Part shown: positions 197 to 17,578 of the stretch, piece by piece
Layout: the number at the start of each line of letters is the position of its first letter
Numbering within the stretch: position 1 is the stretch's first letter
NCBI GenBank assembly: GCA_031283785.1
Contig: JAITBC010000376.1
Span: forward strand, 1 to 17,758
From: Tannerella sp.
GTDB lineage: Bacteria > Bacteroidota > Bacteroidia > Bacteroidales > Tannerellaceae
DNA: 17,758 bases
Direction: 5' to 3'
Translations under genes and position numbers: made by a program
The notes under the pieces: generated by a model
The model's input: the letters and a program-made list of their open reading frames with translations, nothing else
Database searches by the model: none
Told to the model about the DNA's origin: nothing

Positions 197-202
197 CGAC
201 AG

Positions 203-516: not shown

Positions 517-524
517 TAGTTTTG
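517..524 (+). promoter_or_regulatory. -7 box upstream of GT2 gene
   Basis: TAGTTTTG fits TAnnTTTG exactly and lies 18 bases before the ATG at 542, giving a leader of roughly a dozen bases. No clear TTTG is present at the expected -33 position, so the promoter is incomplete by consensus. Confidence 0.4.
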
Positions 525-541
525 CATCTTAAATAAACCTT

Positions 542-3153: not shown

Positions 3154-3165
3154 TCTTCCCCGTTC

Positions 3166-3774
3166 TTATTTTTTACCGTACAACACAGGATTCAACGAAG
3201 GATCATTATACATTTTCATTTGTTTATAAACCTTCATGTATTTACGTCCGTCCCTAATGTCATCCAGCAACTGATTCAGGGCAAAGGATAAATCCTTCTT
3301 CTGCTCCAATAAGACAGACAACTTCTCCTTACATGCCTCGATATGTTCCGGCGTCACATTCGTACGCCGGGTCTCGTCCTGCATATGATATATCTTCAGT
3401 ACAAGGATCGACAAACGGTCGACCGCCCACGCAGGGCTCTCGGTATTAATTCCTGCATCCGGCAGAACATTTACATCTTTATATATATCAAAAAAATAAC
3501 TGTCGATACGTTCTACCAGATCCGTACGGTCCTGATTCGACTTATCAATACGGCGTTTTATCTCCAATGCCTTTGCCGGATCAATCTCCGGGTCGCGTAT
3601 AATATCTTCCAGATGCCACTGCACCGCATCAATCCAATTTTTACAATACAAATAGAACTCTATACTCTCTTTCCCGTAAGGATTCCTGACAGTAGCATCG
3701 ACATCATTCGTCCTGTGATAATCGCTTGTAGCCCTTTCGAAGACCGGATAACATTTTTCGCTAAATTTCTCCAT
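3166..3774 (-). CDS. DUF4254 family protein
   Basis: This is a 202-residue, mostly alpha-helical, charged soluble protein with no signal peptide or membrane segment. I recognise it as DUF4254, a Bacteroidetes family often found beside LPS-core glycosyltransferases; no reaction is established. Visible features are an N-terminal helix with a Tyr/His-rich SDYHRTND motif (about 17-24), a conserved-looking NPYGKESIEFYLYCKNWIDAVQWHLED segment (32-57, read here in pieces), and a long helical C-terminal half. The ATG at 3774 is chosen; a GTG one codon upstream (3777) is also possible. It is 43 bases downstream of purN and 12 bases upstream of the GT9 gene. Context suggests a helper of core-glycan synthesis, but that is inference. 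Confidence 0.85.
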   Translation of the reverse strand: MEKFSEKCYPVFERATSDYHRTNDVDATVRNPYGKESIEFYLYCKNWIDAVQWHLEDIIRDPEIDPAKALEIKRRIDKSNQDRTDLVERIDSYFFDIYKDVNVLPDAGINTESPAWAVDRLSILVLKIYHMQDETRRTNVTPEHIEACKEKLSVLLEQKKDLSFALNQLLDDIRDGRKYMKVYKQMKMYNDPSLNPVLYGKK

Positions 3775-3820
3775 CACATATTATCTAAAAATTTGTCAAA
3801 GATAAGAAAACAAAGTAATA

Positions 3821-4393
3821 TCAGGAAGTAGAAAGCAATTTTTCTATAATACGGGGATAATTTTTGTACTCCAGTTCATGAACCTTCATTGCCACATCAT
3901 CCGCCGTATCCGATGGAAAAACAGGACAAGACGCCTGAAAAATAACAGCGCCCTCGTCATAATGCTCATTCACGTAATGGATCGTAATCCCTGTCTGCGT
4001 CTCCTTTGCTGCAACAACCGCCTTATGGACATAATCGCCATACATGCCTTTGCCTCCGAATCCAGGCAGTAACGACGGATGAATGTTTATGATTCTATCC
4101 GGATACGCCTCAATTACAACTGCGGGAATCTTCAATAAAAATCCGGCCAGCACAATAAAATGCGTTTCATATTCGGAAAGCTTCCGCAGGACTGAAGAAC
4201 CCTCTTTAAATTCAATATTCGTGAAAGTAAATGAAGGGACGCCCAGCCTTTCCGCCCGTACATGAACCCCGGCATCAGACCTGTTCGACAAAACGACGGC
4301 AACGCGTATCATAGCATCGCTGCTGTTGAAATAATTTATCAGGTTTTCGGCATTAGAGCCTGATCCTGAAGCAAATATGGCAATATTATTCAT
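3821..4393 (-). CDS. purN: Phosphoribosylglycinamide formyltransferase, GART
   Basis: This enzyme transfers a formyl group from 10-formyltetrahydrofolate to GAR in step three of purine synthesis (cytosolic). The 190-residue protein has the phosphate-binding SGSGSN (residues 9-14) and the active-site stretch INIHPSLLP (102-110) with Asn103 and His105. The catalytic Asp is Asp146 in HYDEGAVI. These match the Asn-His-Asp triad of the PurN family, and the length is normal. It is divergent from acpP with 157 bases between start codons, and is the first gene of a minus-strand series leading into DUF4254 and the LPS-core genes. The 43-base gap to DUF4254 has no strong terminator, so read-through is likely. 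Confidence 0.96.
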   Translation of the reverse strand: MNNIAIFASGSGSNAENLINYFNSSDAMIRVAVVLSNRSDAGVHVRAERLGVPSFTFTNIEFKEGSSVLRKLSEYETHFIVLAGFLLKIPAVVIEAYPDRIINIHPSLLPGFGGKGMYGDYVHKAVVAAKETQTGITIHYVNEHYDEGAVIFQASCPVFPSDTADDVAMKVHELEYKNYPRIIEKLLSTS

Positions 4394-4411
4394 AATATGT
4401 TATCTTATTTT

Positions 4412-4438
4412 ATGCACAGATTTTAAAAATATGTGCAT
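4412..4438. promoter_or_regulatory. Inverted repeat ATGCACA-N13-TGTGCAT, candidate operator or leader hairpin
   Basis: Perfect 7-base arms lie at 4412-4418 and 4432-4438. A third copy of the arm, ATGTGCA, is at 4472-4478, between the acpP -33 and -7 boxes and overlapping the purN -7 box. It could be a DNA operator shared by the divergent genes, or a 7-bp hairpin in the purN mRNA leader. No matching regulator is known to me. Confidence 0.35.
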
Positions 4439-4463
4439 CTTTCTGCATTTTTTGCATTGATTA

Positions 4464-4496
4464 TTTGTTTTATGTGCAAAAATATATGTTCCTTTG
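4464..4496 (+). promoter_or_regulatory. Promoter of acpP-fabF-rnc
   Basis: TTTG at 4464-4467 is followed after 21 bases by TTCCTTTG at 4489-4496, a near match to TAnnTTTG. The predicted start of transcription near 4501-4504 gives a leader of about 50 bases, A/T-rich before the acpP ATG at 4551, typical of well-expressed Bacteroidetes genes. The same -7 octamer occurs before the TonB receptor (14245-14252). Confidence 0.55.
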
Positions 4497-4505
4497 CGGC
4501 GCAAA
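4477..4505 (-). promoter_or_regulatory. Promoter of purN, interleaved with that of acpP
   Basis: On the minus strand TATTTTTG (4477-4484) fits TAnnTTTG exactly. TTTG (4502-4505) lies 17 bases upstream, slightly close for a -33 box. The boxes lie between and around those of the acpP promoter, so the two polymerases would compete for overlapping DNA. Confidence 0.4.
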
Positions 4506-4550
4506 TATAAGAAATATCAATAACTTAGTATTAATTTAAAATTAAAATTT

Positions 4551-4787
4551 ATGTCTGATGTAGCATCTCGCGTAAAAGCGATTATTGTTGACAAATTGAG
4601 CGTTGAAGAATCAGAAGTTACTAACGAAGCGAGTTTCACAAACGATTTGGGAGCAGATTCTCTGGACACAGTTGAGTTAATCATGGAATTCGAAAAAGAA
4701 TTCGGTCTTTCAATTCCTGACGATCAGGCTGAAAAAATTTCTACCGTAGGAGACGCTATTGCTTTTATCGAATCTAACGCGAAGTAA
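4551..4787 (+). CDS. acpP: Acyl carrier protein
   Basis: This 78-residue acidic protein is the standard carrier of growing fatty acyl chains. The phosphopantetheine attachment site is Ser37 in [15 protein letters not shown], and the surrounding helix II sequence is canonical. Length is normal for bacterial AcpP. It sits 16 bases upstream of fabF on the same strand, the usual pairing. It is preceded by an A/T-rich leader without a Shine-Dalgarno sequence, as is common in this phylum for abundant proteins. Confidence 0.98.
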
Positions 4788-4803
4788 TTTAATCCTTATC
4801 GGT

Positions 4804-6063
4804 ATGGAATTAAAAAGAGTTGTAGTAACAGGTCTTGGCGCCATTACTCCATTAGGTAATACTGTTGCGGAAACATGGCAGGCATTGATTAATGGGATAA
4901 GCGGGGCGGGGCCTATTACTCGCTTTGACGCTTCAAAGTTCAAGACACAGTTTGCCTGCGAAGTAAAAAATTTCGATCCTTTAGCCTATTTTACGGATAA
5001 GAAGGAGGCGCGTAAGTGCGATTTACATGCACAATATGCCATTGCCTCAGCGCAGGAAGCCATAACTGATGCGAATATAAATTTGGAAAAAGAGGACAAA
5101 GATCGTATCGGCGTCATTTTCTCCTCCGGTATTGGGGGTATCTATTCATTCCAGGAGGAAGTAAGAGGATACAGCGATGAACGCGGCCCGCGTTTCAATC
5201 CGTTTTTCATACCTAGAATCATTGCAGATATCTCGGCCGGACACATCTCTATGAAATACGGTTTTCGCGGTCCGAACTTTGCAACGGTATCGGCATGCGC
5301 CTCATCGACTAACGCAATTGGCGACGCGTTCAATTACATCCGTCTCGGCAAAGCGAACATAATCGTAACCGGAGGCGCCGAAGCGCCTATCGCAATCGTA
5401 GGAGTTGGCGGATTTAACGCTATGAACGCTTTATCGACCCGTAATAATTCGCCGGAAACAGCCTCCCGTCCTTTCAGTAACAGCCGTGACGGTTTTGTCA
5501 TGGGTGAAGGCGGAGTTTGTCTTATCCTCGAAGAAATGGAACATGCCCTTGCTCGCGGAGCAAAAATATATGGAGAAATTGTTGGTTCGGGAATGTCGGC
5601 CGACGCATACCACCTGACCGCTTCGCATCCCGACGGATTAGGCGCTACGCTTGTTATGCGTAATGCGCTTGACGATGCGGAAATGAAACCCGAAGATATT
5701 GATTATATCAATGTACATGGCACATCAACCCCCGTAGGCGATATTTCGGAAGCCAGAGCGATAAAAGAAGTCTTCGGCAACCATGCGTATAACCTGAACA
5801 TAAGTTCTACAAAATCGATGACCGGCCACATGCTGGGTGCAGCAGGAGCTATCGAAGCAATGACTTGTATATTATCCGTATATGAAGATATTGTCCCGCC
5901 TACCATAAATCATACGGAAGGTGACAACGACCCCGAAATTGATTATAACCTGAATTTTACTTTTAACAAAGTTCAGAAAAGAACGGTCAATGCGGCACTC
6001 TCCAATACATTTGGTTTTGGCGGCCACAACGCAAGCATAATCGTAAAAAAAACCGGGAAATAA
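4804..6063 (+). CDS. fabF: Beta-ketoacyl-ACP synthase II
   Basis: FabF condenses malonyl-ACP with acyl-ACP in fatty acid elongation. From the ATG at 4804 the protein has 419 residues and begins MELKRVVVTGLGAITPLG, the family N-terminus; the reading frame runs further upstream into acpP but that would add an atypical extension. The Cys-His-His catalytic set is present: Cys165 in VSACASSTNAI, His305 in VHGTSTPVGD and His342 in KSMTGHMLGAAGA, with Lys337 nearby. The glycine-rich FGFGGHNA (403-410) closes the active site. It lies between acpP (16 bases) and rnc (start one base after its stop), so the three genes are almost certainly co-transcribed. Confidence 0.97.
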   Translation: MELKRVVVTGLGAITPLGNTVAETWQALINGISGAGPITRFDASKFKTQFACEVKNFDPLAYFTDKKEARKCDLHAQYAIASAQEAITDANINLEKEDKDRIGVIFSSGIGGIYSFQEEVRGYSDERGPRFNPFFIPRIIADISAGHISMKYGFRGPNFATVSACASSTNAIGDAFNYIRLGKANIIVTGGAEAPIAIVGVGGFNAMNALSTRNNSPETASRPFSNSRDGFVMGEGGVCLILEEMEHALARGAKIYGEIVGSGMSADAYHLTASHPDGLGATLVMRNALDDAEMKPEDIDYINVHGTSTPVGDISEARAIKEVFGNHAYNLNISSTKSMTGHMLGAAGAIEAMTCILSVYEDIVPPTINHTEGDNDPEIDYNLNFTFNKVQKRTVNAALSNTFGFGGHNASIIVKKTGK

Positions 6064-6064
6064 A

Positions 6065-6850
6065 GTGATATTCAAAAGTATATATAAATGGATAAGGCTC
6101 TTTAGATTAAAACACAAAGAGCCTTATCTGTCATTATACAACATTCTTGGCTTTTATCCCGACAATATCGAACTTTATGAACAGGCATTCATTCATCGTT
6201 CCCTTTCCATGACACAGCAGGACGGGAGACGGAGCAATAACGAACGTCTTGAATTTTTAGGCGACGCGGTGTTGGATGCAATAATAGCAGATATTGTATA
6301 TCAGCATTCCCCTAACAAAAAGGAAGGATTCCTTACAAACACCCGCTCGAAAATCGTACAACGGGAAAGCCTCAACCAAATAGCCCTGGAATTGGGCGTT
6401 GACAAAAAAGTGACCTCCATGCCATATGCGACTACCCACCACAAATATATGTATGGTAATGCACTTGAAGCATTAATCGGAGCTATATACCTTGACCAGG
6501 GATACGGACGTTGCTGCAAATTTGTTAAAGAACGTATCATCAATAAACATATCTCTTTAGACAAACTGGCAAACCGCGAAGTAAACTTCAAATCCCGCCT
6601 CCTTGAATGGGGACAGAAGACAAAACTTCATATCGAATTTGACCTTATTGAATCGTTCACGGACGAGGACGGAAATCCTGTTTTTCAGACAAGCGTATCG
6701 TTGGAAGGGACGCCGCTCGGCATAGGCACGGGAAGCACTAAAAAAGAATCGCAGCAACTTGCGGCAAAAAATGTGATCCGGAAGATACACAAAGACAAGG
6801 TGGTCAAACAATTAATAGAAGAACTGAAACATCAACAAACGACAGAATAG
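6065..6850 (+). CDS. rnc: Ribonuclease III
   Basis: RNase III cleaves double-stranded RNA, including rRNA precursors. The start is GTG at 6065, one base after the fabF stop. The resulting 261-residue protein has an N-terminal stretch of about 45 residues before the RNase III domain, longer than in E. coli but plausible for this phylum. The signature NERLEFLGDAVLD is at residues 59-71 (Glu63, Asp67). The second acidic motif reads GNALEALIGAIYLD (131-144): Glu135 is kept, but Asn132 stands where most enzymes have Asp. A double-stranded-RNA-binding domain covers about 172-241, with the terminal helix motif KKESQQLAAKNVI. Location after fabF is a conserved Bacteroidales arrangement. Confidence 0.96.
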   Translation: MIFKSIYKWIRLFRLKHKEPYLSLYNILGFYPDNIELYEQAFIHRSLSMTQQDGRRSNNERLEFLGDAVLDAIIADIVYQHSPNKKEGFLTNTRSKIVQRESLNQIALELGVDKKVTSMPYATTHHKYMYGNALEALIGAIYLDQGYGRCCKFVKERIINKHISLDKLANREVNFKSRLLEWGQKTKLHIEFDLIESFTDEDGNPVFQTSVSLEGTPLGIGTGSTKKESQQLAAKNVIRKIHKDKVVKQLIEELKHQQTTE

Positions 6851-6934
6851 AGGATATACGGGGGGGGGATTGCATTAAAAATCACACGCCGGCAAAAGGA
6901 CTTCCGTAATTACAATTTTGATATCCCGAAGATA

Positions 6935-6963
6935 ATAATGAAGCCGCAACAACTGTTCATTAT
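6935..6963 (-). terminator. Weak hairpin downstream of pfkA
   Basis: An 8-bp A/T-rich inverted repeat (6935-6942 with 6956-6963, 13-base loop) starts just past the pfkA stop. Two or three weak base pairs dominate and the T tract is broken (TTATTATC), so it is at best a weak terminator. No better candidate is seen in the 115 bases between rnc and pfkA. Confidence 0.2.
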
Positions 6964-6965
6964 AA

Positions 6966-7976
6966 TTATATTCCAAACGAAATACCCATATGTACGCCCT
7001 GTTGTATAAGGTCATGGTCTACAGGGACTAACTTTATCTTACCGGCTACTTCCGAAAGGGGTATAGAACCGATTTCATTACCCTTGATACAAACCATACG
7101 TCCAAAAGCCTTCTGCGCAATCAGTTCGGAGGCATGACCACCAAGACGCGTAGCCAGGTTGCGATCGAAAGGAGAAGGATTCCCCCCCCGTTGTATATAT
7201 CCCAAAACCGTCGTTCGCACCTCTATATCCGTAGCCTTTTCAATGGCATGAGATATATAATCCGACGAATAGTCTTTTGCTTTCTTCAAGCCTTCGGCAA
7301 TAACGACAATCGAATACGGCTTCCCTAAACGCGAACGCTCCAGTATTTTGTCGTTCACCCTGTCAATATCAAAACCTATCTCGGGAATAAGGATAACATC
7401 AGCGCCTCCCGCCATTCCGGCATAAAGAGCAATCCACCCTGCATGATGCCCCATCACTTCGACAACCATAACCCGCTTATGCGAACTCGCGGTCGAGTGT
7501 AACCGGTCGATCGCTTCCGTAGCAATATTCACCGCCGTATCGAAACCAAACGAAAGATCCGTGCCGAAGACATCATTGTCAATCGTTTTCGGTACGCCAA
7601 TGACATTAAGTCCTAACTGCATCAACTTATTTGCCGTCTTCTGAGTGCCGTTCCCCCCAATACAAACGACACAGTCAAGCCCCATTTCAATATAATTCCG
7701 ATATATGATCTGCGGCTTGTTATTATCTCCCGAATCAAGCATTTTCTTAAATGGTTTTTCCCGGGATGTTCCCAAGATCGTCCCTCCCAGATTTAGAATG
7801 CCGGAAAGCTTACGTTCATCGAACACTTCAATATCCCTGTTCAACAGTCCGGTAAACCCGTTGTGAATGCCTACCACCTCCATTCCGTAATGCAAAATTG
7901 CAGATTTCCCAACCCCTCGAATCGTTGCGTTTATTCCCGGACAATCACCGCCGGAAGAAAGGATTCCTATTCTCAT
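6966..7976 (-). CDS. pfkA: 6-phosphofructokinase
   Basis: PfkA phosphorylates fructose 6-phosphate in glycolysis. Start ATG at 7976 gives 336 residues opening MRIGILSSGGDCPGINATIRG; a TTG two codons upstream extends the frame but is less likely. Motifs: TSREKP (70-75), GGNGT (107-111), PKTIDND (129-135, catalytic Asp133), MGHHAGWIA (175-183) and QRGGNPSPFDR (262-272). Gly110 is the residue associated with ATP use, whereas Lys130 in PKTIDND is typical of the pyrophosphate-dependent branch. Asn109 replaces the usual metal-contacting Asp. ATP use is therefore likely but not certain. A run of eight G in the coding strand (7182-7189) encodes part of RGGN. The gene converges on rnc. Confidence 0.93.
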   Translation of the reverse strand: MRIGILSSGGDCPGINATIRGVGKSAILHYGMEVVGIHNGFTGLLNRDIEVFDERKLSGILNLGGTILGTSREKPFKKMLDSGDNNKPQIIYRNYIEMGLDCVVCIGGNGTQKTANKLMQLGLNVIGVPKTIDNDVFGTDLSFGFDTAVNIATEAIDRLHSTASSHKRVMVVEVMGHHAGWIALYAGMAGGADVILIPEIGFDIDRVNDKILERSRLGKPYSIVVIAEGLKKAKDYSSDYISHAIEKATDIEVRTTVLGYIQRGGNPSPFDRNLATRLGGHASELIAQKAFGRMVCIKGNEIGSIPLSEVAGKIKLVPVDHDLIQQGVHMGISFGI

Positions 7977-8123
7977 AAGCAAATATATAATCTATGTATA
8001 ACCTCATATTAATGACCATCCGGAACACCACTTTTCCCGGATCTTTTACTGCCCCTTATCCAAACCTTAAACTATCCACTAAAATAACAAAGCCCGCCTC
8101 TCAAAAAAAACGCTTCCGGAGAA

Positions 8124-8312
8124 TTAGGCGATTAACAGATAAACAAAAGAATCTTTCCCCTGATTACTATCGTCAACATTAATGGTCTTTACCGATTCTT
8201 CCGGAAAAAGCCATTTATTCTTTTTCCTTTTTATTGTCGCACGATTCCCGAAACAGGGGACAGACACGGCGCATACAAGAACTATTAACAAAATATCTCT
8301 TACTACAATCAT
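8124..8312 (-). CDS. Possible small secreted or lipoprotein-like protein, unknown
   Basis: This is a 62-residue frame from an ATG. The N-terminus looks like a signal peptide: a hydrophobic core ILLIVLVCAVSV (residues 7-18) precedes PCFG. A short, charged mature part of about 40 residues follows. The cysteine at about 20 does not sit in a good lipobox because Pro precedes it. No family is recognised. No clear Bacteroidetes promoter is seen upstream, and the gene lies beside transposase debris, so it may be a remnant of a larger gene or not expressed. Confidence 0.35.
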   Translation of the reverse strand: MIVVRDILLIVLVCAVSVPCFGNRATIKRKKNKWLFPEESVKTINVDDSNQGKDSFVYLLIA

Positions 8313-8333
8313 ACTTGCTGTATTTATTATACT

Positions 8334-8554
8334 TTAACTGCGCGACAAAATTACATTAATATCCCAAGATTTCCAAGCACAGCGGATGAAAAATTTCCGG
8401 AATGACAGCCTTTGTATCGCCGGGCATGGTCGCCAACAAACTGCCGTCCGCATCTTTTGCACAAATAATTTTGCTGCCCGTACGATTTCCTGTCGTTTAC
8501 CTTTACGTTTCTTCTGTAAAAACATAGTCGTCTATGATAAGTCCGGCAGTTCAA
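8334..8554 (-). pseudogene. IS1-family transposase (InsA-like) N-terminal fragment
   Basis: Minus-strand translation from about 8554 gives a zinc-ribbon segment NDRKSYGQQNYLCKRCGRQF followed by VGDHARRYKGCHSG. This is the characteristic N-terminal DNA-binding part of IS1-type InsA transposases as found in Bacteroidetes and cyanobacteria. The first CxxC pair is degraded (CRTY). The usual helix-turn-helix and the catalytic InsB part are missing: after CHSG the frame drifts and stops at 8351, while the shifted frame continues only to 8334. There is no ATG start and no visible terminal inverted repeats. I read this as a decayed insertion sequence. Confidence 0.6.
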
Positions 8555-8736
8555 ATACGGAACGTATATGCGGACTTTACGACAATATTACAGTAATCAG
8601 GGACACGGACAAAGGATTCAAAAAATACCTGTTTCTTATCCGGCTGTATTTCGTTATTTTCCGGAGAAAACCGAATGGAAAAAAATAATGCCTGCTTTTC
8701 CTTCATAAATTTTGAAGGACATTTTTATTCGTCAGT

Positions 8737-8766
8737 ATTGAATGTCGAAAATTTCATGTACATTTG
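8737..8766 (+). promoter_or_regulatory. Promoter of GH3 / chorismatase-like operon
   Basis: TACATTTG at 8759-8766 matches TAnnTTTG exactly, and ATTG at 8737-8740 lies 18 bases upstream. Transcription would begin near 8772, giving a leader of about 30 bases to the ATG at 8805. Confidence 0.5.
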
Positions 8767-8804
8767 CATGGTTTTTCAAGGTTGCATTTTTTCCTTATTA
8801 AAAT

Positions 8805-10322
8805 ATGGACATCATAACTAAAACAATAGCTCCCTTATTCTCTGCAAGGCAACGGCAAATTGAATCGTTCGGTAAACGATTCGCCGATATACAACATAAA
8901 CAACTGTTACAATTACTGCAAACCGCAAAAAATACAGAATGGGGTGAGCATTACAAATTCCGGGATATTACCGGATACAACACCTTCCGCGAACGGGTCC
9001 CCATATCTGTTTATGAAGATTTGCAACCTTTCATCGAAAGAATGATTAATGGCGAAAGAAACATTCTATGGCCATCTGTCGTAAGATGGTATGCAAAAAG
9101 TAGCGGTACGACAAACGACCGCAGTAAATATATCCCCGTCACCCGCGAAATATTAAGGATGTGCCATTATCAGGGCGGATTCGATACCGTCTCATTATAC
9201 ATGCACAACTACCCCGAAACACGCTTTTTTTCAAAAAAAGGATTGATACTGGGTGGAAGCCACAGTCCTTCAGCCATCAACGAAAAGGCGCATTGCGGAG
9301 ACCTCTCGGCCGTTTTACTGCAGAACCTGAATCCGCTCGTGAATCTTATCCGCGTTCCGAGAAAAGAGATTATACTTATGGACGAATGGGAAGCCAAAAT
9401 AAGCGCGATTGTAGAAAACACACGGGATAAAGATATCGTTAGCATTTCGGGAATACCTTCGTGGATGCTTACGCTCATTAAAGCAATCCTGAATGAAACC
9501 GGAAAAGAAACGCTCCACGAAGTATGGCCGAACCTCGAAGTGTTTTTCCACGGAGGAGTGGGATTCGAACCGTACCGGCCACATTACGAAAAATTATTAC
9601 CGTCCGGCAAGATGCATTATATGGAGACGTATAACGCTTCCGAAGGATTCTTCGGCATTCAGGACGACCCGGCAGACAAAAGCCTGTTGCTGATGCCCGA
9701 TTATGGAATATTCTACGAGTTTATCGCGATGAACGAACTCTCGGCATCCGATAATCCGACAATTATCCCTCCGGAAGACGTAAAGACGAATGAAAATTAT
9801 GCCGTCGTGATTACTACGGCAGGTGGATTATGGCGGTATCTTATCGGTGATACGATACGTTTCACGTCCCTGTTTCCCCACAAATTTATTATTACCGGCC
9901 GGACAAAACATTTCATAAACGCTTTCGGCGAGGAACTGATGATCGACAATGCGGAAAAAGGAATACATACGGCCAGCCTCGAAACCGGCGCCATCGTAAG
10001 GGCGTATACCGCCGCTCCTTTATTCGTTTTAGACAGCGGAAAAGGACGCCACCAATGGTTAATAGAATTTGAAAAATTACCCGAATCTATCGACGAATTT
10101 GCAACAGCCCTGGACAATGCTCTCAAACAATTAAACTCCGATTACGAGGCCAAACGATACAAAGACATCTCCCTTCAGAAACCCGAAATAATACAGGCAA
10201 GAGAAAACCTGTTTTATGACTGGCTGAAAAAAGAAGGCAAACTGGGTGGGCAACATAAAGTGCCATGCCTGTCCAACAACCACGATTTAATCGACAAACT
10301 GTTAGCGATGAATATTTCATGA
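8805..10322 (+). CDS. GH3-family acyl-adenylating (acyl-amide synthetase-like) protein
   Basis: This 505-residue soluble protein belongs to the GH3 family, named after plant enzymes that adenylate auxin, jasmonate or benzoates and join them to amino acids. Motifs appear in family order: the phosphate-binding loop SSGTTNDRSKYIPVT (99-113), the adenine-contacting motif YNASEGFFG (276-284) and the ATP/ribose motif YLIGDTIRF (345-353, Asp349). The C-terminal subdomain contains TGRTKHFINAFGEEL (364-378) and ends with GGQHKVP (481-487), a conserved region in bacterial members. Length is slightly below plant GH3 proteins. Bacterial members are widespread but their substrates are mostly unknown. Its stop overlaps the ATG of the next gene, so the acid it activates may be the product of that enzyme. 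Confidence 0.88.
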   Translation: MDIITKTIAPLFSARQRQIESFGKRFADIQHKQLLQLLQTAKNTEWGEHYKFRDITGYNTFRERVPISVYEDLQPFIERMINGERNILWPSVVRWYAKSSGTTNDRSKYIPVTREILRMCHYQGGFDTVSLYMHNYPETRFFSKKGLILGGSHSPSAINEKAHCGDLSAVLLQNLNPLVNLIRVPRKEIILMDEWEAKISAIVENTRDKDIVSISGIPSWMLTLIKAILNETGKETLHEVWPNLEVFFHGGVGFEPYRPHYEKLLPSGKMHYMETYNASEGFFGIQDDPADKSLLLMPDYGIFYEFIAMNELSASDNPTIIPPEDVKTNENYAVVITTAGGLWRYLIGDTIRFTSLFPHKFIITGRTKHFINAFGEELMIDNAEKGIHTASLETGAIVRAYTAAPLFVLDSGKGRHQWLIEFEKLPESIDEFATALDNALKQLNSDYEAKRYKDISLQKPEIIQARENLFYDWLKKEGKLGGQHKVPCLSNNHDLIDKLLAMNIS

Positions 10323-11494
10323 CCCGCCGCGCATATATGCAATACAAAACGATTACAGACAGGAACCGGCATGCAACGGCAACAATCTCAATGTTTGCCG
10401 CCGAGAAAGGAGTGTCCGAATATCAATTGTCGATTCAAATCATTGAGCAGGGACTTCCCTTTTCCGAACAGCTAAAATCGGTTTTCTCCCTTTTCAATGA
10501 CATCCGCGAAAATGATTTACGTAACACAATCACCGTTTTCCTGCGTGTTTTTCTAAGCGATGCAGCGAATCAAACACAGTTGTTACCGGGATATCTTCCC
10601 GACAGGAAAGACAATATATCAATAATAGAACAGCCTCCGCTGAACAGCACGAAAATCGCCTTATGGGCGTATCTGCAAACCGGAATGGAAGTTTCGTTAT
10701 CACCACCGCATATGCCGGGACTTTTCGGCGTACAACACGGCCGGTACCTGCATTTATGGAATGGAACGGCCATCAAACCGGAAAATGACTCCGAACAACA
10801 AATGAACGCTTTGCTGAAAAATTACATCGCACAACTGAACGTGCACGACTGTACGCTTGCCGGAAACTGTATCCGCACTTGGATTTTCGTTCAGAATGTC
10901 GATGTAAATTATGCCGGGATCGTAAAAGCCAGACGTGAACTATTCAACGAAAACGGGCTTACCGACAAAACGCATTATATTGCAAGCACGGGAATAAGCG
11001 GCCGTCATGCCGACCCAAAAGCTGTCGTGATATTCGATTCTTACGCCGTCAAGGGACTCGAACCCGGACAAATCCAACATCTGCATGCAATGACACATAT
11101 GAGCCCAACTTCCGAATATGGCGTAACTTTCGAACGTGGGACATGCATACGTTACGGAGATCGCCGGCATGTATTCGTATCGGGAACGGCCAGCATCGAT
11201 AACAAAGGGATGATCGTTCACGAAGGAGATGCCGGCAAACAGGCGATCCGCATGATAGAAAATGTTGAAACATTACTGCGGGAGGCGGAATGTGAAACGG
11301 ATGATATTGCACAGCTGATCGTATACCTGCGCGATATGGCCGATTATACGGTTGCCGGAACAATCATCGAAAAGCACTTCCCGGAAATACCGAAAGTAGT
11401 CGTTCACGCTCCCATCTGTCGATCGGGATGGCTTGTCGAAATGGAGTGTTTTGCCATCAAAAAGGATGACAACGCAAAATTCGAACCGTTATAA
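10319..11494 (+). CDS. Rid-superfamily protein, chorismatase-like (FkbO/Hyg5/XanB2 type)
   Basis: Start ATG at 10319 overlaps the GH3 stop (ATGA); the frame is open further upstream but that lies inside the GH3 gene. The protein has 391 residues. Residues about 268-380 form a Rid-like domain with GVTFERGT, VFVSGTASID (286-294), HEGDAGKQ (301-308), a helix ending NVETLL, IVYLRDM and the closing WLVEMECFAI. The combination of SGTASI, GD, Q and LL resembles chorismatases, which hydrolyse chorismate to hydroxybenzoates or dihydroxycyclohexadiene acids plus pyruvate. Upstream segments about 140-215 (YLHLWNGTA, TWIFVQNVDVNYAGI) and 20-90 (TVFLRVFLSDAANQ) also look Rid-like, suggesting up to three repeats against two in known chorismatases. 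It could instead be a Rid protein of other function. Confidence 0.6.
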   Translation: MTRRAYMQYKTITDRNRHATATISMFAAEKGVSEYQLSIQIIEQGLPFSEQLKSVFSLFNDIRENDLRNTITVFLRVFLSDAANQTQLLPGYLPDRKDNISIIEQPPLNSTKIALWAYLQTGMEVSLSPPHMPGLFGVQHGRYLHLWNGTAIKPENDSEQQMNALLKNYIAQLNVHDCTLAGNCIRTWIFVQNVDVNYAGIVKARRELFNENGLTDKTHYIASTGISGRHADPKAVVIFDSYAVKGLEPGQIQHLHAMTHMSPTSEYGVTFERGTCIRYGDRRHVFVSGTASIDNKGMIVHEGDAGKQAIRMIENVETLLREAECETDDIAQLIVYLRDMADYTVAGTIIEKHFPEIPKVVVHAPICRSGWLVEMECFAIKKDDNAKFEPL

Positions 11495-11504
11495 TCCTTC
11501 ATGG

Positions 11505-11523
11505 CGCATATTCGCGGTTTTAT
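11505..11523 (+). repeat. 19-bp direct repeat, left copy
   Basis: The sequence CGCATATTCGCGGTTTTAT recurs exactly at 13405-13423, 1900 bases away in the same orientation. The copy lies in the 25-base space between two convergent genes and overlaps the last codons of the lipoprotein gene on the minus strand. It contains a 3-bp CGC/GCG mini-stem followed by TTTTAT. Confidence 0.8.
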
Positions 11524-12740
11524 TTGACTTTTGCAATGATAAGAACAGGATTATCGTCAAATGTCAAGTCATAAAATTCCGCCGGGAATGTAACATCTTT
11601 GTTTTCTTCCATATATGACATCATGTCGGATGCCGGAATTATGCAAACGGCGTCTTCGTACTTGTTGATCCGGGCTATGTGAAAAGGAGGAAATAATCTG
11701 TTTTTGTGGATAAAACCTCTTTTGGATTTCGATTCACTAACTGTGACAACGGTCTTTTTTGTTCTTTTGTCATAATATCCGTCATAATATTTTACATTGT
11801 CATCAGACCCGCTGTCATATCCCATATCATTATAATCAAAAAAAATATAGCGTTCTGTTTCCTGCACATATTTAATCCAGTAACGGTTGAGATTTTTTTC
11901 CTTATTTTCTCTTTCCGCATAATCCGGTTTCATGTTGCCGAGTTCAAAGACAATATGAGGGACAATTGTGTCCGGGCTTACCCGAAATACAGTATCGTTG
12001 TAGTTCGGTTCCTTAAAATAAAGCGAACCGTCATATTCATAAAACTGTCCGGGATTAAAAGTCGATCTGTCGGTCTGATAATCTTTATATTTACGGTGAT
12101 TGGGGAAGGTCTTGACAATCTTTCCGTCCTTGTTAAATATGACAAGCAAATAAGGCAAATCACCTGTATCATTATTTACATATCCGATATAGTAAACCGA
12201 ATCCATTTTATAAATATTGTCTATTTTTGTAAAGATAATATTATCGTCTGTAATGTCGGCTATCTGTTCGGCCGGCTTGATTACTTTCTCGACAACTTTG
12301 TTTGTATGAATATCTATCCCCAGCCTTTGCAAACTCCTGTAAACATAGAAGATATCGTCCCTTTCATTGAACGGTTCGGAATATATTGTAAAATATTCAT
12401 CCGGCCCTTGTCCTCTTTTTCCTATTTCATAAAGAAACTTACCCGATTTTCTCTCAAACAAATATGCTCCTGTTCCTCCAAACATCTTATTGTAGGCAAC
12501 AATATATTTATCCGTCACATAATACGAACTCATCTCGGCAATTAACAGACATTCGGGTGAGGTTTCCAAGCAAACATATTCCATTGAAACAAACATCTCA
12601 TCTGTATAGGCGGGTTGATAATTTACGTGATCAGGGTCAATAGAAATGTAAATATTCTTTACGTCCACACTTGCGTCTTGCCTGCATGAAAAAAAGAACA
12701 GTACGAATAAAATTTTTAACAAATGTCTATACATCATCAT
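11520..12740 (-). CDS. 6-bladed beta-propeller lipoprotein
   Basis: This 406-residue protein has a basic start, a hydrophobic core and a lipobox-like FFFSC with Cys19, so it is probably a lipoprotein exported by Sec and lipidated. The first of three consecutive ATG codons is used; either of the next two is equally possible. The body is repeated beta-strand sequence with the motif GKRGQGPDEY (107-116), typical of Bacteroidetes 6-bladed beta-propeller (BF3164-like) lipoproteins. Their function is mostly unknown; they are often found next to small exported peptides. It follows the small peptide gene by 91 bases on the same strand and is likely co-transcribed. It converges on the Rid/chorismatase-like gene. 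Its lower G+C than the neighbours suggests separate ancestry. Confidence 0.82.
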   Translation of the reverse strand: MMMYRHLLKILFVLFFFSCRQDASVDVKNIYISIDPDHVNYQPAYTDEMFVSMEYVCLETSPECLLIAEMSSYYVTDKYIVAYNKMFGGTGAYLFERKSGKFLYEIGKRGQGPDEYFTIYSEPFNERDDIFYVYRSLQRLGIDIHTNKVVEKVIKPAEQIADITDDNIIFTKIDNIYKMDSVYYIGYVNNDTGDLPYLLVIFNKDGKIVKTFPNHRKYKDYQTDRSTFNPGQFYEYDGSLYFKEPNYNDTVFRVSPDTIVPHIVFELGNMKPDYAERENKEKNLNRYWIKYVQETERYIFFDYNDMGYDSGSDDNVKYYDGYYDKRTKKTVVTVSESKSKRGFIHKNRLFPPFHIARINKYEDAVCIIPASDMMSYMEENKDVTFPAEFYDLTFDDNPVLIIAKVK

Positions 12741-12831
12741 TTATTGTTTTTATAAAACAAGGTATATAAAATTCGTAATTGTTCATGTATAGTCAATGCA
12801 ATGATTTTTTTGATATATCACTCTTCATGAA

Positions 12832-13074
12832 TTAAAGTGAGCAAACCTCTATTCCAAGAACATTGTAGCAAACTTCATACCCTCCTATTACACAAGGACT
12901 TCCGTCAGGATAGTTATAAACATACCGGTATGTGTTACCATTAAGGATACAGAGGTAAACACCCGCAGAACTAGCATATCCTCCATAATCACTACTATCC
13001 ATAACCATTTTCGCTTCACTTTTGCTCAACACAACGGCTTTTCCTTTAAAAATCAATTTGTTTAACTTTTTCAT
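12832..13074 (-). CDS. Small Cys-rich peptide with RiPP-like leader
   Basis: This 80-residue protein begins MKKLNKLIFKGKAVVLSKSE, then AKMVMDSS. The Lys/Leu-rich start followed by LSxxE is the leader pattern of Bacteroidales peptide precursors with double-glycine leaders (TIGR04149-like). At the place where GG normally follows, this protein has Asp-Ser, while a GG pair comes a few residues later (31-32). The remainder (33-80) is Tyr/Gly/Cys-rich with Cys42, Cys61, Cys69 and Cys78 and few charges. No radical SAM enzyme, peptidase or transporter is encoded in the window. It lies 91 bases upstream of the propeller lipoprotein gene on the same strand, inside the direct-repeat-bounded segment. Function as a modified or disulfide-bonded exported peptide is inference. 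Confidence 0.7.
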   Translation of the reverse strand: MKKLNKLIFKGKAVVLSKSEAKMVMDSSDYGGYASSAGVYLCILNGNTYRYVYNYPDGSPCVIGGYEVCYNVLGIEVCSL

Positions 13075-13251
13075 TTGTATAAAATTAAGAATGTTATGTT
13101 ATGGCAATATGCAATAACGACCCCAATATTACAAAATAAAATCAATAGCGCCTCTATTTTTGATATAAATTTGCTGAATGTACTGATTTTATAGGCCGAA
13201 CGTAGTCTCAAATGTTAACAGCACATCGAAAGAACTTTTTGCTTATGTAAT

Positions 13252-13286
13252 AAAATAACAGGAATGTCTCCTGTTATTTTTTCAAT
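13252..13286. terminator. Strong hairpin, bidirectional terminator-like
   Basis: A perfect 12-bp stem (AAAATAACAGGA at 13252-13263 with TCCTGTTATTTT at 13269-13280) closes a 5-base loop ATGTC and runs into TT on the plus strand. On the minus strand the stem ends in TTTTATTA. It stands in a divergent intergenic region where no annotated gene needs a terminator, so it may end a small RNA or a lost gene. Confidence 0.65.
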
Positions 13287-13404
13287 GTTACGAACAGTGC
13301 CGAGGTTGGATATTCATCCGAATTGTCCGCATCTCGCGTTTAAAACATACAACAGCCGCTTTTCACACTCGTCCGAATCAAACTGCATTCTCGACGGTTA
13401 AATC

Positions 13405-13423
13405 CGCATATTCGCGGTTTTAT
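13405..13423 (+). repeat. 19-bp direct repeat, right copy
   Basis: This is identical to 11505-11523. Here the flanking base makes the mini-stem CCGC-ATATTC-GCGG (4 bp) followed by TTTTAT. It ends 12 bases before the -33-like box of thrH. Confidence 0.8.
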
Positions 13424-13434
13424 CACCGGCAAGT

Positions 13435-13465
13435 TTTCGTTTTATAGCAAATAATTGTAATTTTG
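13435..13465 (+). promoter_or_regulatory. Promoter of thrH
   Basis: TTTC (13435-13438) is followed after 19 bases by TAATTTTG (13458-13465), an exact TAnnTTTG. The predicted start near 13471 gives a 25-base leader before the ATG at 13496. Confidence 0.5.
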
Positions 13466-13495
13466 CGGATCGTTCAATTTAATAATTATAAGGAG

Positions 13496-14104
13496 ATGTG
13501 GGTCATTTGTGCTGATTTAGAAGGGGTTTTCGTGCCTGAGATATGGGTTAACGTGGCAAAAAAGACAGGAATAGAAAAACTGAAACTTACGACACGCGAT
13601 ATCAAAGATTACGATGAACTGATGAAATACCGTTTGCAGGTACTGGATGATAATAACTTGAAATTAAAAGATATTCAAAATGTTATTGCTACACTCGAAC
13701 CCCTTCGCGGAGCTTTGGATTTCGTCAGGTGGCTGCGTAAAATTTCGCGTTTTGTCATCGTTTCGGATACTTTCATCGAATTTGCACAGCCATTGATGGA
13801 CCAACTCGAAAATCCTTTATTACTCTGCCACTCGCTGGAGACCGACAAATCCGGGAAAATCACAAATTACAAATTACGCCAACCCGACCCCAAACGTAAA
13901 ACCGTGGAAGCATTCCGCAGTCTCCGGTATAAAACGCTTGCTTTCGGAGATTCCTACAATGATATCTCAATGCTCAAATCGGCGGATGTCGGAATATTGT
14001 TTTGTCCGCCCGATAACGTAATTGCCGATTACCCGGAATTTCCCGTCACAAAGAGTATACCGGAACTTAAAATGCTTATACAGCGACATATATCCGACGA
14101 TTAA
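13496..14104 (+). CDS. thrH: ThrH-like phosphoserine phosphatase / homoserine phosphotransferase
   Basis: This HAD-superfamily enzyme removes phosphate from phosphoserine and can pass it to homoserine, linking serine and threonine metabolism in the cytosol. The 202-residue protein closely follows the ThrH pattern throughout: DLEGVFVPEIW (7-17) with nucleophile Asp7 and Glu9 in place of the usual second Asp, TTRDIKDYD (32-40), VSDTF (89-93), LRQPDPKRK (127-135, with Lys133) and GDSYNDISML (151-160, Asp152 and Asp156). The ATG at 13496 is preferred because it gives the family N-terminus and full length; a TTG at 13463 would overlap the -7 box. AAGGAG directly touches the ATG and is too close to act normally. 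No threonine or serine genes are adjacent. Confidence 0.92.
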   Translation: MWVICADLEGVFVPEIWVNVAKKTGIEKLKLTTRDIKDYDELMKYRLQVLDDNNLKLKDIQNVIATLEPLRGALDFVRWLRKISRFVIVSDTFIEFAQPLMDQLENPLLLCHSLETDKSGKITNYKLRQPDPKRKTVEAFRSLRYKTLAFGDSYNDISMLKSADVGILFCPPDNVIADYPEFPVTKSIPELKMLIQRHISDD

Positions 14105-14114
14105 ACGATTAAAT

Positions 14115-14174
14115 CTGCCGGCCGGACGACCGGGGAATGCCGCCCACCGCCTTGTTCGCCCGCAGGCGCACCAC
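14115..14174. other. GC-rich island after thrH
   Basis: Forty-six of these 60 bases are G or C (77%), far above neighbouring intergenic DNA. It contains CCGGCCGG and a 5-bp CGCCT/AGGCG stem, but no T tract, so it is not a normal terminator. No coding frame of use is seen. Confidence 0.5.
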
Positions 14175-14203
14175 TTACCATTGTAATGTTTTTATACGGA
14201 AAA

Positions 14204-14223
14204 AATCACTACATGTAGTGATT
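14204..14223. promoter_or_regulatory. Perfect 20-bp palindrome, probable operator
   Basis: AATCACTACA is followed immediately by its reverse complement. The right edge overlaps the -33 box of the TonB receptor promoter, and the centre lies about 44 bases before the predicted transcription start. That position suits a dimeric activator of the CRP/FNR type or a repressor blocking the -33 box. The regulator is not in the window. Confidence 0.65.
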
Positions 14224-14252
14224 GTCCATATCAACTTTTTAAAGTTCCTTTG
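14221..14252 (+). promoter_or_regulatory. Promoter of TonB receptor gene
   Basis: ATTG (14221-14224) and TTCCTTTG (14245-14252) are 20 bases apart. The -7 octamer is the same as in the acpP promoter. The predicted start is near 14258, 38 bases before the ATG. Confidence 0.5.
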
Positions 14253-14295
14253 CCGTCGCAAAATGAAGTAGCTTTAATAACCAATATATTAATGT

Positions 14296-16605
14296 ATGAA
14301 AAAAATATTTTTATTATTATCCCTGTTCATTATTATTCCAGTGAACGGGAAAGTATCGGCTGAAGAAAAAAACACTCCGCAGGACACGGTTAGAATATTT
14401 AATATGGACGAGGTTGTCGTCATTTCGTCGTCAAAAGAGACAAACAAAATGCGTACACTGCCCGGCTCCGTCTCGCTGCTGTCGCCCCAGCAGATTTACG
14501 GGAAACAGGTGACGTCAATAAAAGATATCAGTTCGTTCGTCCCTAACCTGTATATACCCGATTATGGCGCCAAACTGACCTCCGCCGTTTATATAAGGGG
14601 CGTCGGAGCGCGGAGCAGCGGACAGTCCATCGGCTTATACGTAGATGAAACCCCGTATATGGATAAAAGTTCGTTCGACTTCGAACTGACGGATATTCAG
14701 CGGATCGAAGTGCTGCGCGGCCCGCAGGGGACATTATACGGGCGTAATGCAATGGGTGGGATAATTAACATATACACCCTTTCTCCCTTTGATTACCAGG
14801 GCGTCAAAGCATCTCTTTCTTACGGCAACTACGGCCAGGCAAACGCTAAAATATCCGTTTATAATAAACCGAACGACAAACTCGGACTGTCGCTCGGTGC
14901 ATATTACAGCCATCGAGACGGTTTTTTTACAAATACTTATAACAGCCGGAAAGCGGATTATGAAGATACGGCAGGAGGAAACATGAAATTATATCTGATA
15001 TTATCTTCCGCCCTCACCGCTTCATATTCCGTTTCTTACGAACACACCGGCCAGGGCGCATTCCCTTACGGGTTTTATCATGAGGACACAAAGACGGTCG
15101 ACAAAGTGAATATCAACGACAAATCATCGTACGAACGCTCCCTGTTAAGCAATAATCTGTCTCTCAGATATCAAAATGAAAATATTTCCGTCACTTCCAC
15201 CACCGGATATCAATATCTGAATGATGACATGAAAATGGATCAGGACTTTTCCGATTCTTCCCTGTTTATTTTAAACCAGTTACAGAAACAACACACATTC
15301 ACCGAAGAAATATCGGTGAAAAGTAAAAACGACAATAATTACCAATGGTCATTCGGCGTACACGGCTTTTATAATAAATCCGGTACCGACGGGCCGGTAG
15401 AATTTAAGGAAGACGGGATAAAAACGATTCTGCAACCCGTATTCGACAAACTGAACGACTATGGGATGCCGGGTAAACTCACCATCACCAACGAATCGTT
15501 ATATATCCCCGGCGATTTCGGGACGCCTTCATTCGGTACGGCAATATATCATCAATCAACCTGCAATAACCTTCTCTCCGAAGGCCTGTCCATCACGGCG
15601 GGTATACGTCTGGACTACGAGAAACAGGAGTTAACATATCACTCCGAAGCAAAAATGAACCTCCACATGCAAATTGCACCCGGCAGGCCGCCGATAGATT
15701 TAAGTGAAAGTTATCCGGCTTCGATAATCAACGAGAAAATCTCGCAGGAATTCCGTCAGGTTTTGCCGAAGATTTCGCTGAAATACGAGTGTACTCCGCG
15801 TACATTCGCCTATTTATCGATCGCCAAAGGATATAAGGCCGGAGGATATAACGTGCAAATGTCCGCCGATATTATGCAGCGACGGATGCAGTTCGACGTT
15901 ATGAACTCCTTCAAACAATATATGCCTCCTTCGTTTGAGATAACAGAGCCGCAACCGGTGAAAGAAGTCATTTCATACAGGCCCGAAACGAGCTGGAATT
16001 ATGAGACCGGCATGAAAAGCATGCTTATAAAAGACCGGTTACGTACGGAAGTTACGCTATTTTATATGGATATCAGGGATCTGCAAATCACTAAATTCGT
16101 CGAAAGCGGAAACGGACGTTACTTGAGTAATGCGGGAAAAGCAGAAAGTTATGGCGCAGAACTTTCTCTGTCTGCAAGATTATCCGACAAACTCACCGCC
16201 GACCTCAACTATGGATATACTCATGCCACATTCCTCGATTATAACAATGCAAAAGAAAATTATAAAGGGAAATACATCCCCTACACGCCGCGACACACGT
16301 TAAGCACAGGCCTGCAATATAACAGGCCGCTCAGGAACTGCCTGATAGACCGGATAACCGCATCGGCGCAATGCAACGGAACAGGGAAAATCTACTGGAC
16401 GGAAGAAAACAGTATATCACATCCGTTCTATGTGATTGTCAATGCACAAGCCGGCGTACATAAAGGAAGGATTTCGCTGTATTTATGGACGAAAAACCTT
16501 ACCGATACGGATTATTCGACATTCTACTTCGAATCGCTGAATAAACCCTGCATGCAAAAAGGTAAACCGCTACAATTCGGCGCCAGACTAAACATCACAC
16601 TCTGA
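14296..16605 (+). CDS. TonB-dependent outer membrane receptor
   Basis: This 769-residue protein has a signal peptide (about 1-22, probable cut after VSA) and then a short periplasmic stretch with a TonB-box-like DEVVVISS (38-45). It has no carboxypeptidase-like N-terminal domain, so it is not a SusC-type receptor. The plug domain spans about 52-165 with VYIRGVGAR (98-106) and IEVLRGPQGTLYGRNAMGG (137-155). The rest is a beta-barrel of about 600 residues with alternating Tyr/Ser/Lys strands and TonB_dep_Rec-type segments such as YKAGGYN and ETSWNYETGMKS. The length fits siderophore, haem, cobalamin or small-glycan receptors; the ligand cannot be named. The gene is preceded by a palindromic operator and followed after 54 bases by a DUF4491 gene. 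No SusD partner is present. Confidence 0.93.
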   Translation: MKKIFLLLSLFIIIPVNGKVSAEEKNTPQDTVRIFNMDEVVVISSSKETNKMRTLPGSVSLLSPQQIYGKQVTSIKDISSFVPNLYIPDYGAKLTSAVYIRGVGARSSGQSIGLYVDETPYMDKSSFDFELTDIQRIEVLRGPQGTLYGRNAMGGIINIYTLSPFDYQGVKASLSYGNYGQANAKISVYNKPNDKLGLSLGAYYSHRDGFFTNTYNSRKADYEDTAGGNMKLYLILSSALTASYSVSYEHTGQGAFPYGFYHEDTKTVDKVNINDKSSYERSLLSNNLSLRYQNENISVTSTTGYQYLNDDMKMDQDFSDSSLFILNQLQKQHTFTEEISVKSKNDNNYQWSFGVHGFYNKSGTDGPVEFKEDGIKTILQPVFDKLNDYGMPGKLTITNESLYIPGDFGTPSFGTAIYHQSTCNNLLSEGLSITAGIRLDYEKQELTYHSEAKMNLHMQIAPGRPPIDLSESYPASIINEKISQEFRQVLPKISLKYECTPRTFAYLSIAKGYKAGGYNVQMSADIMQRRMQFDVMNSFKQYMPPSFEITEPQPVKEVISYRPETSWNYETGMKSMLIKDRLRTEVTLFYMDIRDLQITKFVESGNGRYLSNAGKAESYGAELSLSARLSDKLTADLNYGYTHATFLDYNNAKENYKGKYIPYTPRHTLSTGLQYNRPLRNCLIDRITASAQCNGTGKIYWTEENSISHPFYVIVNAQAGVHKGRISLYLWTKNLTDTDYSTFYFESLNKPCMQKGKPLQFGARLNITL

Positions 16606-16619
16606 AATTTCCGACATTA

Positions 16620-16633
16620 ATTAACAGGTTAAT
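16620..16633. repeat. Small palindrome between receptor and DUF4491 gene
   Basis: ATTAAC-AG-GTTAAT is a 14-base palindrome in the 54-base gap. It is AT-rich with no T tract, so it is not a convincing terminator. Confidence 0.25.
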
Positions 16634-16659
16634 AATTAAAACGATAAAAATTTTATATC

Positions 16660-16980
16660 ATGATAGAGCTGCTCACTACATACAATCTACTGGGGCTGAC
16701 AATCGGAATTGCCACATTCCTCATCATCGGACTGTTTCATCCGCTTGTGATAAAAGCCGAATATTACTGGGGCAGAAAATGCTGGTGGCTATTCCTGATG
16801 ACCGGGATTACTTTTCTTGCTTTATCGGTCCTGATAAAAAACACATTTTTGTCGACCGTCATGGGCGTCATTGCCTTTTCATGCTTCTGGTCTATCTTCG
16901 AACTTTTCGAACAAACCAAACGCGTCGCAAAAGGCTGGTTTCCTGCAAATCCCAAACGAGTAAAAAAGAAAACAAAATAA
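16660..16980 (+). CDS. DUF4491 small membrane protein
   Basis: This 106-residue integral membrane protein has three predicted hydrophobic helices at about 7-30, 41-60 and 63-84, with a cytoplasmic-looking basic tail ending in VKKKTK. The conserved-looking stretches GLFHPLVIKAEYYWG (25-39) and SIFELFEQTKRVAKGWFP (78-95) match my recollection of DUF4491, a Bacteroidetes family without a known function. It lies 54 bases after the TonB receptor with no terminator between, so they are probably co-transcribed. A role linked to uptake through the receptor is possible but is inference. There is no clear promoter of its own. Confidence 0.82.
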   Translation: MIELLTTYNLLGLTIGIATFLIIGLFHPLVIKAEYYWGRKCWWLFLMTGITFLALSVLIKNTFLSTVMGVIAFSCFWSIFELFEQTKRVAKGWFPANPKRVKKKTK

Positions 16981-17065
16981 CATGCGAACAGATTTTTATA
17001 CATCCATCTTACATATCGTATCCTCATTTTCTGCGACCTGTTTTTATTTTCCAGATCCAAACGCA

Positions 17066-17091
17066 TTTGTTAAATATAATTAGTACATTTG
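17066..17091 (+). promoter_or_regulatory. Promoter of ridA-GH28 operon
   Basis: TACATTTG (17084-17091) fits TAnnTTTG exactly. The nearest TTTG (17066-17069) is only 14 bases upstream, shorter than usual, so the -33 element is uncertain. Transcription would begin near 17098. Confidence 0.45.
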
Positions 17092-17180
17092 CAAACTGTT
17101 TTTTTTCACATAACAGGCTTTCATCTTATAAAATGAAAGACAAAAAAGTATCGTATCATAAATCTTTAGATCGGAAAGAG

Positions 17181-17558: not shown

Positions 17559-17578
17559 TTTTTAACGGGAATAGAACG

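Follow-up and report, generated by a model that had tools for sequence, protein, structure and literature searches.

Known systems and the locus

Chorismatases of the FkbO (CH-I) and Hyg5 (CH-II) types, known from the structures PDB 4bps, 5ag3 and 5a3k, are two-part sequences that end in a RidA-like domain and act through a catalytic Glu. GH3 proteins are known from plants, where GH3.12/PBS3 shares the GH3 domain and the amide-forming acyl adenylation that is the family's chemistry, and from Singulisphaera acidiphila, where the lyso-ornithine lipid synthetase OlsH joins fatty acids, not aromatic acids, to ornithine (excerpts of PMC12493201). Here we consider 17,758 nucleotides of DNA from Tannerella sp. 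(assembly GCA_031283785.1, contig JAITBC010000376.1, positions 1 to 17,758; the window hereafter), in which a GH3 gene is followed on the same strand by the gene of a chorismatase-like, two-domain Rid protein. A preliminary description of the window had proposed that the pair makes a chorismate-derived acid and then conjugates it. In what follows L denotes a locus and G a genome.

A third described system is relevant to the Rid protein. The imelysin/di-heme oxidoreductase (DHOR) iron operons of Bacteroidales, which are EfeOB-like, are the commonest genomic home of its subfamily among 80 loci of relatives. The window is unlike these operons in that imelysin, DHOR, porin and CcsBA were not found beside the Rid gene among the 12 window open reading frames (ORFs) scanned; of the labeled gene sets, GH3 and Rid alone are represented in it. 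In Bacteroides thetaiotaomicron, BT2473-BT2482 (porin, thiol oxidoreductase, peptidase M75, CcsA) are up 62.7- to 323.7-fold in low iron (excerpt of PMC10434189), and imelysin-like proteins have been linked to iron uptake (excerpt of PMC3143127).

We favor the reading (probability about 0.6) that the window holds two enzymes, probably co-transcribed, that belong to different pathways: a GH3 ligase of N-acyl amino acid synthesis and a chorismatase-like Rid protein, their adjacency being bound to one lineage. With ATP, the GH3 protein would activate a carboxylic acid as its adenylate and couple it to an amino acid, so that an N-acyl amino acid results; the carboxylic acid would most likely be a fatty acid. 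The Rid protein would use its conserved acidic residue, E368, to act on chorismate or on an enolpyruvyl or diene acid resembling it. Its commonest partners in relatives appear to be the genes of the imelysin/DHOR/porin/CcsBA operon, and in one Tannerella clade its gene would have come to lie between the GH3 gene and a HAD gene, a direction of movement that we infer.

The Rid protein and the chorismatases

Two family alignments connect the Rid protein to the chorismatases. A2 is the alignment of the window's own Rid family (57 rows), and A3 is that of a Bacteroidales FkbO/Hyg5-like family. The two match by profile-profile comparison with an E value of 6e-30 over 332 columns, and profile matches of six A3 members to PDB chains reach 5e-44 for Hyg5 and 3e-31 for FkbO. 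Homology of the Rid protein to chorismatases is supported because A2 matches A3, and A3 matches Hyg5 and FkbO. Within the Rid superfamily, the sequence supports placing the protein with the chorismatases, in a divergent subfamily. The A3 family resembles this subfamily in length (about 385 amino acids) and has the same Gly/Cys/Glu signature; identity of A3 to the nearest Rid rows is 24-28% where BLAST gave a value. The two differ in that all 22 A3 rows keep Hyg5 N131, P169, Q201 and L331, which the window's subfamily has lost, the Q201 column being uncertain in the joint alignment. The N-terminal FkbO/Hyg5-like domain, PF21168, is present in the listed relatives of L013, a member of the A3 family. 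It gave no Pfam hit in the Rid protein at E up to 10; A2 and A3 nonetheless align over the 332 columns.

Many Hyg5 residues have counterparts in the Rid protein. Residue numbers of the Rid protein count from the ATG at 10337. In the joint alignment, whose locus rows had been pre-filtered by motif, window R180, W182, Y192, R199, T218 and G219 correspond to Hyg5 R128, W130, Y147, R154, T172 and G173; Y261, F265, R267, S282, G283, T284 and A285 to Y207, F218, R220, S239, G240, T241 and A242; and Y330, C361, R362, L366, E368 and E370 to Y295, C327, R328, L332, E334 and E336. E334 is the essential acid of Hyg5, and the signature of the Hyg5 type (CH-II) is Gly, Gly and Cys, numbered G164, G231 and C318 in Nat-hyg5 (excerpts of PMC7170507). 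Shifted by nine, these become Hyg5 G173, G240 and C327, and the window has the full set as G219, G283 and C361. FkbO has Ala at both the G240 and the C327 positions; G173 is common to Hyg5 and FkbO and therefore does not discriminate between the types.

Because the joint alignment was motif-filtered, conservation was counted in A2 and in a set of 121 rows (120 database proteins plus the window), which carry no motif filter and hold fairly close homologs only. The listed residues are invariant in the 57 A2 rows, except that G219 is nearly so, and no alternative residue occurs at these positions in the 121-row set, where one row is gapped toward the C-terminus. E368 is invariant in 57/57 and 120/121 rows (one gap). 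Of the features named in the preliminary description, SGTASID and HEGD (residues 295-298) are in place, and 'Q/LL' holds only in part, the actual motif being CR-SG-WL-VE, in which Trp takes the place of the Leu found in Hyg5 and FkbO.

The FkbO/Hyg5 chorismatase model TIGR04444, searched across the order (119 genomes), had matches in 13, none over the cut-off; its top matches, at 144 bits, come from a different family whose members are about as long as the Rid protein. The 14 control genomes gave one match, under the cut-off. A class-wide search of 295 genomes found a match in 211, mostly single-domain RidA genes, and therefore we make no claim on the Rid family beyond the order; among the matches listed, those of full length are confined to G001, G124 and G305 (partial ones in G276 and G078). 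Publicly, the only names shown for members of the family are Rid family hydrolase, RidA, endoribonuclease L-PSP, translation initiation inhibitor and hypothetical protein. What remains of interest is a Bacteroidales family, known under these names, that keeps the catalytic signature of chorismatases.

The GH3 ligase

The GH3 protein has the N-terminal, central and C-terminal GH3 domains (PF03321 at 3e-60, PF23571, PF23572) and all three nucleotide-binding motifs, as expected of a GH3 acyl-acid amido synthetase. OlsH (NF052613) is its closest named family, the model matching over residues 14-500. The context is unlike that of OlsH, since Pfam found no OlsI/OlsG-like alpha/beta hydrolase or methyltransferase among the 12 window ORFs scanned. 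Plant GH3 structures in the PDB match at E values of 6e-21 to 3e-12, and GH3.12/PBS3 (only 1e-18) is not the best of them, being surpassed by the auxin-conjugating GH3-1 (6e-21). Aromatic specificity is not readable from the sequence. Excerpts of PMC12493201 state that almost 90% of BLASTp hits fall in Bacteroidota, and that for these hits formation of N-acyl ornithine is held unlikely and other amino acids are possible.

The gene is found in 28 of the 31 genomes of a wider set of relatives; among the 14 controls only Bacteroides ihuae has it. The ligase is core and nearly always single-copy, and N-acyl amino acid synthesis is the simplest way to account for it.

Distribution of the gene pair

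Two surveys bear on whether the pair is conserved. In named genomes, 80 loci, the best 80 of 581 relatives and for that reason biased to close kin, place GH3 next to Rid in five (L023-L026 and L029), all of them metagenome-assembled genomes of Tannerella sp., presumably from termite guts. In Tannerellaceae (118 genomes, E up to 1e-30, with co-occurrence and adjacency tallied manually from two lists), GH3 occurs in 105 genomes, including 59 of the 61 of good quality, and Rid in 68. The two occur together in 62, against 60.5 expected if they were independent. They are adjacent in six (G001, G002, G008, G011, G505 and G516), with G503 undecidable since both genes lie at contig ends. The surveys are not independent, as five of the six adjacent genomes appear to be the same as the five named loci.

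A tree of 94 rows of the Rid subfamily and 7 of the intermediate family A3 (two of the latter identical) puts the window into a clade of eight rows (100/100), with linkage to GH3 in six; only this inner clade was used because the outgroups are long-branched. Within the clade L027 has Rid with GH3 on another contig, and L028 has no adjoining GH3 in the approximately 400 bp seen upstream and none found in what appears to be its genome (73% complete). The adjacency looks like a recent event in one lineage, and a shared pathway is not supported.

The position after GH3 is itself variable. The upstream flank purN-fabF-rnc-pfkA-GH3 (purN and rnc by eye) is kept without an adjoining Rid gene in many relatives; in G495 and G469 the flank and GH3 are kept and the Rid gene is elsewhere in the genome. 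In five sister genomes (G006, G009, G013, G015 and G510) the next same-strand gene after GH3 encodes CcsBA, a cytochrome c assembly protein, and in G009 and G510 a HAD gene then follows, as it does after Rid in the window. The loci with CcsBA after GH3 are L135, L136, L137, L142 and L197. In a quick-method CcsBA tree, built from every third row of L023-L102, four of the post-GH3 copies (G510 is absent from the tree) cluster with the CcsBA of the imelysin/DHOR/Rid operons, apart from general CcsBA. These four are of the operon type, and the slot has therefore held either of two genes that are neighbors elsewhere.

Neighborhoods of the Rid subfamily

Outside the window's clade the Rid gene keeps other company. 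Of the five genes for porin A, imelysin, DHOR, Porin_O_P and a 241-amino-acid lipoprotein, three or more accompany it in 51 of the 80 loci; CcsBA does so in 44. None of the 80 combines GH3 with CcsBA or with an operon gene. Four have a PD40-type protein, the representative of which contains a CxxCH motif. The order porin, imelysin, DHOR, Porin_O_P, lipoprotein, Rid was seen among L030-L101 (the 51 loci), in Bacteroides, Parabacteroides and Prevotella alike, and the array is often adjoined by CcsBA or hemerythrin-cluster genes. Two tandem Rid copies with hemerythrin-cluster genes between them occur in the Parabacteroides-type genomes of L070, L071, L089 and L159.

Some copies lie elsewhere. By eye, the distant Rid genes (about 45-50% identical) of L154 and L157 are near genes of tryptophan biosynthesis, a user of chorismate. 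In L162, L164, L168 and L155, genes from both chorismatase-like families are directly beside, or separated by one gene from, members of a single cluster of PD40-type proteins, and the PD40-type protein of L155 (the same as L007) has the CxxCH heme motif. A single conserved neighbor for all Rid copies was considered and rejected, since GH3, iron-operon, PD40, trp and unrelated genes are all found among the neighbors.

In the window's own genus the link of Rid to the iron operon was looked for in the set of 31 relatives and was not found. No Rid gene lies in the 20 stretches around DHOR, imelysin or CcsBA in these genomes, several stretches ending at contig ends.

Points against the preferred reading and alternatives to it

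Several observations weigh against the reading that we favor. TIGR04444 gives the Rid protein 37.5 bits where its cut-off is 325, the general Rid model TIGR00004 outscores it with 48.1 bits, and the order-wide search missed the Rid gene of G001, the nearest genome compared (86% complete), whose Rid protein is 87% identical to the window's. Five residues common to Hyg5, FkbO and A3 are not kept (N131 to I183, P169 to I215, A171 to S217, G175 to S221 and L331 to W365); Hyg5 R148 and D149 are replaced by A and G as well, among other changes. The score, together with the several differing positions, is why we call the subfamily divergent. The likeness to chorismatases that had been proposed, and the comparison with FkbO and Hyg5 residues suggested along with it, thus stand as regards homology via A3 and the kept Glu, Gly, Gly and Cys, but not as regards the model score and the five shared residues. 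The GH3 protein lies below the OlsH equivalog cut-off (394.6 against 620 bits). All six adjacent genomes have the pair in same-strand order, in most with little spacing, and some selection for co-expression may therefore have acted. Finally, the Rid gene does not track the iron genes: DHOR and imelysin occur in the same 15 of the 31 relatives and in 6 of the 10 with full-length Rid, and G001 has neither although it has Rid.

One alternative, which the low chorismatase score would suit, is an imine deaminase of the ordinary Rid type that carries an additional domain and detoxifies a reactive intermediate: the general Rid model scores higher, PF01042 is the sole Pfam hit, and the best sequence match in the PDB is 2dyy, a single-domain Rid. 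RidA, however, carries a substrate-binding Arg, and at the corresponding position, which we take from alignment to 2dyy by hand to be Lys353 of the window, 105 of the 121 rows have Lys and only three have Arg. Since agreement with the chorismatase-like family is also seen in the N-terminal half and in the CR-x-x-[LW]-L-x-E motif, we hold a deaminase to be improbable. No better placed is the pathway of the preliminary description, in which the Rid protein would make a hydroxybenzoate from chorismate and the GH3 protein would adenylate it and conjugate it to an amino acid. In its favor are the same-strand adjacency within a supported clade, the Hyg5-type residues and the rank of GH3.12 near the top of the PDB hits for the GH3 protein; yet GH3-1 matches better, joint presence is at the level of chance, adjacency is confined to six of 118 genomes, CcsBA can fill the same slot, OlsH is the closest family, and L027 and L028 have Rid without adjoining GH3 even within the clade. 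The coupling had been expected to show in the neighborhood, and no conserved neighborhood was found for the pair. Such a GH3-chorismatase pathway would be new if true; it is not borne out by the evidence, and we give it little credence.

Another possibility is that Rid serves iron limitation, by making a chorismate-derived aromatic that would chelate or reduce iron for the imelysin/DHOR/porin system. The frequent presence of Rid among operon genes, the induction in low iron of the similar locus BT2473-BT2482 (excerpt of PMC10434189), which presumably holds a Rid gene, the ties of imelysin-like proteins to iron uptake (excerpt of PMC3143127) and the conserved chorismatase residues are consistent with such a role. 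Many Rid copies lie elsewhere, however; 14 of the 80 loci have none of the searched genes and no GH3 (several are on short contigs, some at contig ends), and the 20 stretches without Rid and the lack of imelysin and DHOR in G001 argue in the same direction. We consider this role unlikely on present evidence. Equally tentative is a broader version: a large chorismatase-like subfamily residing in a Bacteroidales operon for iron starvation and c-type cytochromes would make an aromatic iron chelator or electron shuttle, and the window's clade would have recruited it beside a lipid-forming GH3. Should chorismate indeed be the substrate of Rid, an iron-linked branch of aromatic-acid metabolism would exist in gut Bacteroides and could be tested in commensals amenable to genetics. 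A literature search listed no paper whose title or abstract opening links chorismatases with these operons.

Gene layout and neighboring features

In the preferred reading the two genes, both real and on the same strand, are probably expressed together (Table 1). An ATGA, described earlier as an overlap of stop and start, is indeed present at 10319-10322. It contains the GH3 stop, TGA at 10320-10322, and 10319 is an in-frame alternative start for Rid. That start is probably not used, because most aligned homologs begin at or near M(x)YK, position 10337; it would add six residues that are absent from them. With 10337 as the start, the genes are 14 bp apart and do not overlap. RNA structure was looked for at the junction and nothing was found (z 1.13).

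Where a single promoter had been ascribed to the pair, one promoter-like element is indeed present ahead of GH3, of the form TAnnTTTG, the -7 promoter consensus of Bacteroidales. Such sites number 27 in the window, against 17.3 expected, and 1 of 200 shuffles reaches 27. By eye, a site of this form is also found upstream of GH3 in L023, L024, L026 and L029. In L023, the closest relative, the gap between GH3 and Rid is 347 bp and has its own TAnnTTTG element, TAAGTTTG. Co-transcription or co-expression of GH3 and Rid is probable.

Table 1. Positions of the genes, motifs and promoter-like element in the window.
Feature	Position	Strand	Remarks
Promoter-like element TACATTTG (TAnnTTTG)	8759..8766	+	38 bp 5′ of GH3
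GH3-family acyl-adenylating enzyme, 505 amino acids	8805..10322	+	ORF, Pfam, OlsH model, PDB profile matches
GH3 nucleotide-binding motif I, SSGTTNDRSK	9099..9128	+	Read against motifs quoted in an excerpt of PMC12493201
GH3 nucleotide-binding motif II, TYNASEGFF	9627..9653	+	Read against motifs in an excerpt of PMC12493201
GH3 nucleotide-binding motif III, GLWRYLIGD	9825..9851	+	Read against motifs in an excerpt of PMC12493201
Chorismatase-like two-domain Rid protein, 385 amino acids from conserved start	10337..11494	+	ORF, families, homolog starts, alignments
SGTASID, residues 282-288	11180..11200	+	G283 = Hyg5 G240 (Ala in FkbO)
CRSGWLVEME	11417..11446	+	C361 = Hyg5 C327; E368 = catalytic E334
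6-bladed beta-propeller gene and 80-amino-acid ORF, between Rid and HAD genes	11520..13074	-	
HAD phosphatase, ThrH-like by eye	13463..14104	+	

In several relatives the GH3/Rid slot is flanked downstream by the HAD gene and a TonB receptor. The 80-amino-acid ORF has no Pfam match, and neither it nor the beta-propeller gene is present at the corresponding place in L025 and L029. In L023, pieces resembling an IS30-type transposase lie directly 3′ of the Rid gene (3340-3869, by eye). A second RidA gene, of the ordinary single-domain kind, lies further downstream in the window (17181-17558; PF01042, E 7e-44), and single-domain RidA genes are found downstream in L025 and L027 as well.

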